A DNA stretch of 36,863 bases from Candidatus Gastranaerophilales bacterium (GTDB taxonomy: Bacteria; Cyanobacteriota; Vampirovibrionia; Gastranaerophilales; Gastranaerophilaceae). The notes below the pieces were generated by a model, which ran no database searches, had not been told where the DNA came from, and worked only from the letters and a program-made list of their open reading frames with translations. Below, in pieces: positions 1 to 10,003 of the stretch (position 1 is its first letter; each line of letters starts with the position of its first letter). The position numbers were made by a program, and so were the translations under genes. The stretch lies in the NCBI GenBank assembly GCA_947631645.1, contig CANRMD010000016.1, positions 1 through 36,863 of the forward strand, read 5' to 3'.

Positions 1-1925
1 AAATTGTATGTAGCAATACGATTATCTGCCGAAATATCTAAATTTGATTCGTTATTAACATTAAATTCTTTAGCACCAGTAAATAGTTTAACTTCACCCG
101 TGTCGCTAATAGGTACACCGCTTCCGACTGCAAGAGTACCGCCTTCAAGGTTAACCGTTCCTTTATACCCTGTCATATCGGCATTCAATATAACGGTTCC
201 GTTATAATCTTCTTTTGTACCTTGTGCTTCTTCGCCCCATTCTTCAAGCCACTCATCTTTTAAATTACGATATTTGTTAATGTTAATAACACCATCAGCA
301 TTGTCATTATAAGAAGTTATTTTATCATTTAAGTGAATAGCGTGTCCCGCTTTTGCATTTAAGGAAATTTCACCACCGTTATCAGTAATACCGCTTGATT
401 CTAAACTGCCTTCCGATTCTCCCGCTTTATTGCCTTCAAATATAACATCTTTATTCTCGGCAATAATAACAAGTTTGGCATCTTTAGCGTTAAATATTGC
501 ACCTCCTGAGGCATTTTCACCAACTACTTTGTTATTTATGAAGCTGGAATCTTTTATTGTTGTTCGTGCAGTATTTTCGTTATATATAGCACCTCCGCCG
601 GATGCTTTATCAGTTATTCCCTCACCGTATTCATACGTATCACCATTTCCTTTTTCAAATTCATCATTATCAAAATCATCGGGAGATGCACTTTCACCGC
701 TTATTTTAACCGTATTGCCTTCAAAAGTTGTGTTATCAACTTCAAAGAAAAATTGATTGTAACCACCTTCGTCATCTCGGCTTTCAAAGTATGCGGCACC
801 ACCTTTTGCGGTAGGACCTTCAACATGGTTATTTATAAATAACGAATTTTGGATTGATGTATTATGGTACGCCCCGAGTGCACCGCCGTATCCGCCGTAT
901 GAACCTATAGATTTGTTATTTTCAAATACGCTGTTTATTATATCAACTGTTTCGGCATCATAATAATTATTATCTAAGAATAAGGCTCCGCCATAGCTTT
1001 TTATAGCTTCAGAAGAGTTACCTCCAAAGTATGTGTTTTTGATTACACAATCCATAAACCCGCCTAATGCAACGGCACCGCCGCCCGTCAAAATACTTAC
1101 ATCTTTGCCGTTAACAGAGTTATTTAAAAAGTAAGAATTTTCTATTAATAACTTATTACTTGGGTTATCATCATATCCGGTTCCGTCTAAGTATAAAGCA
1201 CCGCCTTGAACTTCTGTTTCATATGGCAGTTGACCCTTACCTTTATTGGGGTCGGTTGATTTTGACGAATTATTTATAAATACGCTATTTTTAACGGTAA
1301 CTCCCTTAGCTTCTTCCTCTTCTTCTATCCAAGGAGCCTCCCATCTTAAGGCCCCGCCATTTGCTCCATTTTTGTGTTGTATTAACTTATTGTTTGTAAA
1401 TACACTATTTTCTATATTAAAATTTTTACTTTCGGAATATAAAACAGAAGTGTTTTCAGATGGGCTGGCTACGTGATGCGTAGAATTTTCACTATCATAT
1501 TCAAAATTTTTAAACCCTTCATTTGTTACATTTAAATATTTTGTTGTTTTGTTTCCGCTTTCATCAAGAATTGTAATTTCCTGAGAAGTTTCACTCTTTT
1601 CATCTTTTAGTTCATATTTCCCGACATTTTTAACTGTAATATCATAATAGCTGGCACTTTCATTCTTGCCTTGTGATTCCTCATTATAGAATTGAAACCC
1701 GTGCCCGTTTTCCTCTTGAGTACCGCTTGTAACACCGTGTCCTTGTCCGTCAATTGTTAAGTTGCCATCTTGTTTTGGAGGTGCATCATCTGTGCTGTTT
1801 ATTGTCACATCTTCATTAAGAGTAACTTCACCTTGGTCTTGCCAAGGAGTTTGGGCGTTTGAAGCTGTTTGTATTGTTAAAAATGCTGTACTTAAAATTA
1901 ATGCAGATAAGAACTTCTTTTTCAT
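1..1925 (-). CDS. Secreted beta-helix adhesin / autotransporter-like protein, 3' end outside the window
   Basis: The reading frame is open from the ATG at 1925 to the left edge, 641 codons with no stop, so the C-terminus is missing. Residues 1-24 form a signal peptide (MKKKF, hydrophobic core, cleavage after SNA). From about residue 150 the protein is built of degenerate repeats. Turns such as SVFTNN, SVFINN, SYFLNN, SVFENN and SLFINN alternate with GGA-type turns (GGALYL, GGAVAL, GGALFL, GGAIYN). This is the pattern of polymorphic outer-membrane-protein and other right-handed beta-helix passenger domains. A shaving-resistant surface role and a C-terminal beta-barrel are expected from the family but not visible here. 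A GAGGAAT ribosome site lies about 13 nt before the ATG. The gene diverges from trpS. A poly-C tract upstream of its promoter suggests phase-variable expression. The repeat class is clear; the ligand is unknown. Confidence 0.8.
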   Translation of the reverse strand, partial: MKKKFLSALILSTAFLTIQTASNAQTPWQDQGEVTLNEDVTINSTDDAPPKQDGNLTIDGQGHGVTSGTQEENGHGFQFYNEESQGKNESASYYDITVKNVGKYELKDEKSETSQEITILDESGNKTTKYLNVTNEGFKNFEYDSENSTHHVASPSENTSVLYSESKNFNIENSVFTNNKLIQHKNGANGGALRWEAPWIEEEEEAKGVTVKNSVFINNSSKSTDPNKGKGQLPYETEVQGGALYLDGTGYDDNPSNKLLIENSYFLNNSVNGKDVSILTGGGAVALGGFMDCVIKNTYFGGNSSEAIKSYGGALFLDNNYYDAETVDIINSVFENNKSIGSYGGYGGALGAYHNTSIQNSLFINNHVEGPTAKGGAAYFESRDDEGGYNQFFFEVDNTTFEGNTVKISGESASPDDFDNDEFEKGNGDTYEYGEGITDKASGGGAIYNENTARTTIKDSSFINNKVVGENASGGAIFNAKDAKLVIIAENKDVIFEGNKAGESEGSLESSGITDNGGEISLNAKAGHAIHLNDKITSYNDNADGVININKYRNLKDEWLEEWGEEAQGTKEDYNGTVILNADMTGYKGTVNLEGGTLAVGSGVPISDTGEVKLFTGAKEFNVNNESNLDISADNRIATYN

Positions 1926-1957: not shown

Positions 1958-1986
1958 AGTATAATATATATAATCTTGAAAATCAA
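1958..1986 (-). promoter_or_regulatory. Predicted sigma-70 type promoter of the beta-helix surface protein
   Basis: On the minus strand, TTGATT (1986-1981) and TATACT (1963-1958) are separated by 17 bp, matching 4/6 and 5/6 of the consensus. The start codon lies about 33 nt downstream of the -10, leaving room for the GAGGAAT ribosome site. Read by eye only. Confidence 0.5.
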
Positions 1987-2008: not shown

Positions 2009-2017
2009 GGGGGGGGG
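2009..2017. repeat. Nine-base G:C homopolymer upstream of the surface-protein promoter
   Basis: Nine consecutive G on the plus strand are nine C on the coding strand of the surface-protein gene. The tract ends 22 bp upstream of the predicted -35 box, roughly 58-66 bp upstream of the likely transcription start. Such a tract is very unusual in this AT-rich DNA. It also lies about 115 bp upstream of the trpS start. Tracts of this kind upstream of -35 boxes are known contingency switches in other bacteria (for example the homopolymer before sabA in Helicobacter). Confidence 0.85.
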
Positions 2018-8800: not shown

Positions 8801-10003
8801 TTATTGCCCGCTAAATTTTTTTAATGTTTCAAAACCTTTAATGGAATTTTCTGTATCAAAAGGTATATTTCTTTTTAATATATTTGAAGCTTTAGTTACA
8901 TAAGGACTGCCTGTATGGTCAATAGCTATTACTTCACCTTCGCCGACAGTTCTAATTCCTTCAAGAGTCTTTACTGTAGTGCCTTCAGGTACTATTTTAA
9001 AGGCTCCGGGTGCTTGTTTGGTGACATTTACAACTTTCCCGTAATCTAAGTTTGCAGGATTTTGATAATTTAATTGACCTGATGTTTTAAAAGCTCCGGT
9101 ATCGACGTAAGAACCTTTAAATACCCCGCCGTCACATACAGCCATATCGCTTGTTCCGTCATACATCATAATCATTTGTTCTTTTGATGTATCTATAATA
9201 TATGGTTCATTAGGATTCCATTTATTAGGAATGCAATATTGTCCGTTCTCGTTTTTAAATACCCCGGGATTATTGGCAAGAATTTCTTCTTCCGTACCGT
9301 TCGGGTTAAATCTGTATGCTTGAGCTTCATTAGCTTTACTCATATATTCAACTTGCCCTTTTCTTAAGGCATTTGAATTAGCATGAATATTTCCTGTTAT
9401 TGAAGTTAAAACGTTTCCTTTGATATTTAAACCGCTTTGTACAACGGATTCAGGAGCTGTTTTAAAGCATTTTGCCGTAGCCTGTAATATATTTAAGTCT
9501 TCATAACCTTTTGCACCTGATACACCCGCTTTTGAAGCTGTTTTCAATGCAGCCTTAGATGAAAATACCGAAGCTGCAATAGTAAAAGTACCGTTACCTA
9601 TATTTTCAAACGCTTGTTTAGCTTCTCCGTCCGTATCTGCGGTTGATGCTTTATATATTCCGTAGCCGACTTGTCCTGCACCTAAAGTTACTCCGCCTGC
9701 GACAAGAAATGGCAGTGCAGCTCCTCCTGTTGCAACAGTCAATGCAGTACCTGCCGCAATTGTCAATCCTGTTGCTATGGGATGTTTAATAACGGATTTA
9801 ACTATTCCAATAAGCCCTTTTCCAAAGGATGCTGCTCCTTCCTTAAAGGATATTTTTCCGTCATCTTTACCATCGGTACAGATTTTATCTTTATCTTCTA
9901 TCCAATCTTTAAACCAGGAACTTTTTTCTAATTCCCTTGTATAATTTACATTTCGGGGGGGGGTATTTGTAATATTATAATTGTTACTTATTGCTGAAAC
10001 CAT
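8801..10003 (-). CDS. Lineage-type membrane-associated protein with EF-hand-like loop; probable phase-variable gene
   Basis: I do not recognise a named family in this 400-residue protein. Visible parts are an Asn-rich N-terminus, an EF-hand-like loop at residues 44-55 (DGKDDGKISFKE, canonical except Lys at loop position 3), and an Ala/Gly-rich hydrophobic stretch at about 72-116 that could insert into a membrane. A long polar C-terminal half contains GxFKxSG-like segments. The start ATG at 10003 has a GAGGAAT site 8 nt upstream. Codons 14-17 (T-P-P-R) are written with nine consecutive C. At the present length the frame is ON. With eight C translation stops three codons later; with ten C it stops about 16 codons after the tract. 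An alternating AT tract lies just upstream (10020-10032). The gene ends at a strong terminator. Confidence 0.75.
   Translation of the reverse strand: MVSAISNNYNITNTPPRNVNYTRELEKSSWFKDWIEDKDKICTDGKDDGKISFKEGAASFGKGLIGIVKSVIKHPIATGLTIAAGTALTVATGGAALPFLVAGGVTLGAGQVGYGIYKASTADTDGEAKQAFENIGNGTFTIAASVFSSKAALKTASKAGVSGAKGYEDLNILQATAKCFKTAPESVVQSGLNIKGNVLTSITGNIHANSNALRKGQVEYMSKANEAQAYRFNPNGTEEEILANNPGVFKNENGQYCIPNKWNPNEPYIIDTSKEQMIMMYDGTSDMAVCDGGVFKGSYVDTGAFKTSGQLNYQNPANLDYGKVVNVTKQAPGAFKIVPEGTTVKTLEGIRTVGEGEVIAIDHTGSPYVTKASNILKRNIPFDTENSIKGFETLKKFSGQ
9955..9963. repeat. Nine-base poly-C tract inside codons 14-17 of the 8801-10003 gene
   Basis: Nine G on the plus strand are nine C on the coding strand. 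The tract sits 41-49 bp into the reading frame, the classic position for a translational on/off switch by slipped-strand mispairing. It has the same length as the tract at 2009-2017. Confidence 0.9.

Follow-up and report, generated by a model that had tools for sequence, protein, structure and literature searches.

A run of nine cytosines near the start of an open reading frame raises the question of whether it works as a genetic switch. The run considered here lies in a stretch of 36,863 nucleotides (the window) that forms contig C16 of a Candidatus Gastranaerophilales genome, an AT-rich assembly of 1.87 Mb in 77 contigs (G000). A preliminary description of this DNA had interpreted the run as the contingency tract of an on/off phase-variable, lineage-specific membrane protein. 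Read directly from the window, positions 9955-9963 are G9 on the plus strand, which is C9 on the minus, coding strand. The run and its gene are:

9955..9963, minus strand: C9 homopolymer in codons 14-17 of the focal ORF, ACC CCC CCC CGA (T-P-P-R)
8801..10003, minus strand: focal ORF of 400 aa, intact at nine C, with no Pfam or NCBIfam match

Tract, codons and protein length are thus as first described, and the outcome of slippage in each frame was recomputed with the same result. Counted from codon 14, the focal frame stays open for 387 codons with nine C, ends after 5 codons with one C fewer and ends after 18 codons with one C more, the two stops falling about 3 and about 15-16 codons past the tract. 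In silico, loss or gain of a single base therefore closes the frame within 18 codons either way, as expected of a tract that alters expression. The next in-frame start-type codons are TTG at 80, 88 and 153 and ATG at 221, making a near-full product after frame loss unlikely. The assembled copy is the ON state. The likeness in position, length and frame outcome to contingency loci holds up, and both the genome and its family have many tracts of this sort. The run is of slippage-prone length beyond what chance gives, both in the shuffles and in the genome-wide counts below. Slippage in the focal gene is probable.

The reading that we place first, with somewhat better than even confidence and ahead of its main competitor, is that the focal C9 is a slipped-strand contingency tract with an on/off effect on a lineage-specific protein. 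Replication slippage would gain or lose one C, shift the frame at codon 14 and truncate the protein, and a later slip would restore the frame, leaving a population in which some cells would be ON and others OFF for this protein. The tract would be one element of a genome-wide phasome of 37 G/C tracts of 9-11 bases; some of the others would alter the spacing of promoters, and some are located in genes whose products are exported, modify glycans or carry surface repeats. Slippage at the focal tract, ON/OFF switching of the protein and selection for that switching are what we infer; the genome-wide tract system, as far as sequence can tell, is well supported.

The protein itself belongs to no Pfam family up to E = 1 and to no NCBIfam family, and a profile search against solved structures returned six matches with E values of 0.06 to 0.39, taken as noise. 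Five partial relatives are found elsewhere in its own genome, and a part of it, mostly residues 40-200, is matched in 49 of 58 genomes, its own included. The EF-hand-like loop ascribed to it is there as a D-rich stretch (DKDKICTDGKDDG), in which D39, D44, D47 and G49 are invariant across eight aligned sequences; the loop is recognized by eye only, with no EF-hand model matched in Pfam up to E = 1. The membrane assignment corresponds to one moderately hydrophobic stretch at about residues 79-115, whose best 19-residue mean of 1.64 is borderline. No signal peptide was seen by eye. The upstream neighbors are CutA-like and GlcD-like, both below NCBIfam cut-offs.

Related loci indicate how old such a switch might be. 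A run is present at none of eight orthologue loci, which at this place have other residues in mixed codons, for instance N-N-Q-L-Q-K in the closest orthologue (78% identical). Four of the eight lie in the same assemblies as G034, G028, G003 and G031, and the orthologue-bearing genomes are Candidatus Gastranaerophilales MAGs labelled Lapin (taken as rabbit) and BRZ_FP, plus sheep and goat bacterial MAGs. Orthologues with T-P-P-R in mixed codons and no homopolymer had been named in advance as a result that would speak against the switch; this came true in part, the run being absent and the codons mixed, with residues that differ. In the wider protein family, 64 loci (some places counted twice) include six with a run of at least 7: the focal locus, four in which the run is at a clear distance from the matched gene, and one (L197) whose G7 is some 400 nt upstream of the matched segment. 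Only at the focal locus, among these 64, does such a run lie within the N-terminal part of the matched gene. A conserved focal tract was rejected on both counts. Retention in orthologues, which supports a contingency locus without defining it, is seen for other tracts described below and not for this one, and since the run is missing from all eight loci and their codons are mixed, the focal tract looks like a recent gain rather than a conserved switch.

This age profile also suits the main competing explanation, to which we give a minority but substantial weight. It regards the run as an unselected by-product of a lineage that expands chance G/C runs, a recent accident in a tolerant linker that slips occasionally and will be lost. 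Besides its absence from the orthologues, the run sits where conservation is low, past residue 10 and ahead of the W34 region, which is conserved. It also has C on the coding strand, an orientation that accounts for 5% in Campylobacter ORFs according to one survey (PMC6321876).

What weighs against the by-product is found outside the focal gene, beginning with the distribution of run lengths. Under neutral growth, runs of 6-8 would be expected as intermediates, yet they are fewer than the long ones: genome-wide, G000 has 52 G/C runs of at least 6, comprising 15 of 6-8 and 37 of 9-11. Around its tracts the counts for lengths 5 to 11 are 43, 1, 0, 1, 16, 18 and 3; they are 42, 0, 0, 2, 40, 20 and 5 in G034, and 30, 2, 0, 2, 21, 9 and 2 in the analyzed part of G003. 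Since these loci were picked for their tracts, their ratios to short runs are local, which does not apply to the genome-wide 37 versus 15. The tracts of at least 8 analyzed number 38 in G000 (37 of 37 runs of at least 9, plus one of 8), 67 in G034 (65 of 65, plus two of 8) and 34 in G003 (32 of 47, plus two of 8), along with 24 of the 119 in G032; ten further G003 loci entered the leader analysis only.

Across the genus, runs of at least 9 range from 0 to 119 in the 35 genomes searched, 21 of which have at least 16 and 14 at most 8. In 155 genomes drawn from the order, the median is 14 for the own family (135 genomes; maximum 176, with 79 genomes at 10 or more and 15 at none) and 2 for other families (20 genomes; maximum 6); the genomes are related, and the rank-test P of 9e-7 is a guide only. 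Genomes of other families may be rich in runs of at least 6 yet poor in runs of at least 9, as in G052 (330 versus 5). Among the sampled genomes, an excess of long G/C runs thus marks one family of Gastranaerophilales. The maximum belongs to G086, from another genus of the same family, with 176 runs of at least 9 in a 2.2-Mb genome.

A comparable collection is the Campylobacter phasome, likewise with many G/C tracts per small genome and lengths that peak at 9-10, reported there as 53% at 9 and 26% at 10 (PMC6321876), and with on/off control by frame or promoter, which is predicted for the present tracts. The present tracts differ in belonging to another phylum and to an uncultured gut lineage known here from sequence alone. 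They also differ in placement, with 23% of the Campylobacter tracts outside ORFs (PMC6321876) versus 21 of 38 in G000 outside gene calls, in a genome with 13% non-coding sequence. The corresponding counts are 17/24 in G032, 30/67 in G034 and 12/34 in G003. Gene calls were longest-ORF picks, for which an out-of-frame tract may make a coding place look intergenic, and part of the non-coding excess could be due to selection against frameshifts.

Many of these tracts share one arrangement, and such repeated, functionally placed contexts that recur between species are the second point against the by-product. A promoter-like sequence, TTTGCnnn-Gn-nine bases-TATAAT, has 38 copies among 58 genomes, spread over 11 that belong to a single genus, and the reversed pattern has no match in the 58. 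Tract and TATAAT are exactly 9 nt apart in 35 of the 38 copies, with n of 8 (4 copies), 9 (18), 10 (13) and 11 (3). TG one base before TATAAT is frequent, and in the G000 copies that were read an ATG follows about 35-46 nt past the tract. If TTGCnn serves as the -35 box, the spacer would be 18-22 bp, which would leave many copies with little or no activity. In Neisseria porA and fetA and in Bordetella fim, the spacer varies in length through a homopolymer located between -35 and -10; unlike those spacers, the present arrangement, with its putative -35 box, recurs many times within and between species.

A second tract in the window lies outside any gene call, and its surroundings are:

2009..2017, minus strand: the other C9 homopolymer, between genes and 83 nt ahead of a PMP-like gene, with G9 at the corresponding site of G003
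3..1925, minus strand: PMP-repeat protein, 641 aa to the window edge (Chlam_PMP, E 8e-13)
1958..1986, minus strand: sigma-70-like match TTGATT-17-TATACT between tract and PMP-like gene, a consensus match only, of which shuffles give as many

This tract corresponds to L145 of G003 (83% over 372 bp), and its flanking bases are less conserved than the tract itself. On the other side, trpS has a conserved TATAAT of its own, and the PMP-repeat gene is the likely target. As a candidate switch, the 2009-2017 tract is better conserved than the focal tract. The repeats of the PMP-like gene are of the Chlamydia PMP type.

Another recurring context is the N-terminal leader of exported proteins. In G032, nine of the 24 analyzed tracts lie 23-26 nt past an ATG, ahead of a prepilin sequence of the FTL(A/S)E type. 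Five of these nine leaders were scanned, and all five match N_methyl at E < 0.001, in three cases under the Pfam cut-off; three of the five genes also match DUF6613. Read from that ATG, two of the nine tracts are in frame and seven are out of frame, though one or two of the seven may use another start. The sheep MAG RGIG6412 has eight tracts of 9-12 (L181-L188), of which three are in prepilin leaders (GFTLAEVLITLG) and two are ahead of a Sec-like hydrophobic signal, to which a third, L187, was assigned by its similar flank. The flanks of these three Sec-like leaders are 93-97% identical over 101-250 bp, with runs of 12, 10 and 9. By eye, all eight RGIG6412 tracts are followed by a stop within a few codons in at least one frame.

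On export, the residues that such runs encode would be removed together with the leader. A parallel is Neisseria pilC, in which poly-G lies in the signal-peptide region and the repeat residues leave the mature protein. As in pilC, the tracts of these relatives of the focal genome are in cleavable N-terminal leaders; unlike pilC, the leaders are multi-copy and both prepilin-like and Sec-like, and the focal gene is without one. Surface pili are also switched in a gut commensal, Bifidobacterium breve, by slippage in intragenic G-tracts, which is described for two sortase-dependent pilus clusters (PMC9187656); here there are tens of tracts per genome, and relatives with type IV prepilin-like genes.

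Length comparisons bear on both leading explanations. Two contigs of G000, C39 and C43 (L169 and L170), overlap by 13,501 bp at 99.67% identity, and every difference between them (41 mismatches and two single-base indels) falls within the first 1.1 kb. This stretch also contains a tract directly before TATAAT that is G9 in one contig and G11 in the other, and four A8 or T8 runs further along are equal. Because both contigs carry MutL, the pair looks like one locus in two haplotypes, and the position of the tract in the divergent 1.1 kb points to a haplotype difference rather than a slip within one clone. This pair is the only within-species length difference found.

Between species, seven tract pairs could be aligned over at least 90 bases on both sides, and six are of equal length, four at 9 and two at 10 (2009-2017/L145, L068/L160, L073/L161, L081/L153, L083/L154 and L128/L162); the exception is L076/L110, with 10 and 8. 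Given how often each length occurs in G000 and G003, a share of about 0.4 of the pairs would be expected to agree by chance, and lengths therefore look steadier than free slippage would give. The equal lengths thus argue against free slippage and count in favor of the by-product; the recurrence of tracts between species argues for function.

Loss of mismatch repair as a general cause of the tracts was rejected, because most genomes have MutS and MutL whether they are rich or poor in tracts. MutS_V was found in 57 of the 58 genomes and DNA_mis_repair (MutL) in 52. With both, G000 does not qualify as a repair-deficient hypermutator, for which loss of MutS or MutL would be required, and the presence of these genes counts against the contingency reading of the focal run. 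The six genomes without DNA_mis_repair include the tract-rich G032 and G027 as well as the tract-poor G002 (1 run) and G015 (2). G027 has 43 runs, is 83% complete and has no MutL match; for it and G032, repair loss may be the cause in single cases. G032, with 119 runs, 96% completeness and no MutL match, has several of its tracts in prepilin leaders (L091-L100).

We consider it improbable that the runs are sequencing or assembly artefacts, such as the false G runs of two-colour sequencers. The study label is a possible confounder among the eight orthologue-bearing genomes, in that the five labelled Lapin all have at least 17 runs (17 to 65) and the three others 0 (BRZ_FP), 8 (RGIG6412) and 1 (RGIG1973). 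Nevertheless, RGIG6412 bears another label and still has its eight tracts, three in prepilin leaders and three before secretion-type signals. An artefact would also have to produce the fixed 9-nt distance to TATAAT in the promoter-like copies, place tracts at corresponding sites in separate assemblies and keep a 400-codon frame open in the focal gene.

Marginally less credible still is that the focal G9 is an antisense promoter spacer acting on transcription and not on the reading frame. An exact TATAAT does lie 12 nt past the run. However, this spacing is not the 9 nt of the promoter class, there is no TTTGC element, and the TATAAT falls within N-Y-N-I codons for residues common to close orthologues that have no tract; a promoter scan finds nothing of such geometry. 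A promoter reading of the focal run is thus unlikely.

Plain chance within the 36.9-kb window is the least credible of all: it has 65 G/C runs of length 4 and five of length 5, lacks any of 6-8 and has two of length 9, and although two of 100 dinucleotide shuffles reached two nine-base matches, their mean is 0.04 against the two observed, and both the bimodal genome-wide excess of long runs and their family-level distribution stand against it.

Contingency loci have mostly been studied in pathogens of a few phyla. At the outset they had been supposed to be little described in non-photosynthetic relatives of Cyanobacteria, and no report of phase variation in Gastranaerophilales or Melainabacteria was found in open PMC papers, the passages of a Melainabacteria-related paper on flagellins being unrelated. 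Mechanisms of this kind are known; what seems new is the scale and the position in the tree. What was pointed out as the curiosity of a single locus has a larger counterpart in the genome-wide and family-wide set of tracts, to which the 2009-2017 tract belongs. On balance, we lean toward a large phasome in a family of uncultured, non-photosynthetic Cyanobacteria relatives in animal guts. It would comprise up to 176 switch-length poly-G runs per 2.2-Mb genome and recurring modules (the G-run promoter and the prepilin or secretion leaders), vary from 0 to 119 runs between species of one genus with repair genes kept in nearly all, and have the focal gene as a recent recruit. If so, hardly cultured commensals would diversify their pili, glycans and surface proteins on a Campylobacter scale, presumably under pressure from phages, immunity or competitors. 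A single genus whose species range from 0 to 119 tracts offers a natural comparison for the origin of a phasome.

The genes associated with tracts in G000 include LicD, a fragment of a family 10 glycosyltransferase, a formyltransferase, a hexapeptide transferase, acyltransferase 3, PIG-L, a methyltransferase, and kelch and PMP repeats. Ordinary genes are also near tracts, such as undecaprenyl diphosphate synthase and several without any family. In a Pfam comparison, 136 genes with or beside a tract were set against 110 drawn at random from the 351 other genes of the same loci (G000 and G034 loci and 24 G003 loci, with 22 of G032 left out). Among the matches listed, FkbM methyltransferase, AlgX, kelch and PMP are in the tract-gene list and absent from the random one, and Radical_SAM (7/136 versus 5/110) and GT2 (3 versus 2) hardly differ; no formal claim of functional enrichment is made. 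In one apparent operon (L061:2646-5644), three consecutive genes (hexapeptide, formyltransferase-like and ATP-grasp/HAD) each have a C-run 60-90 nt before the gene end.
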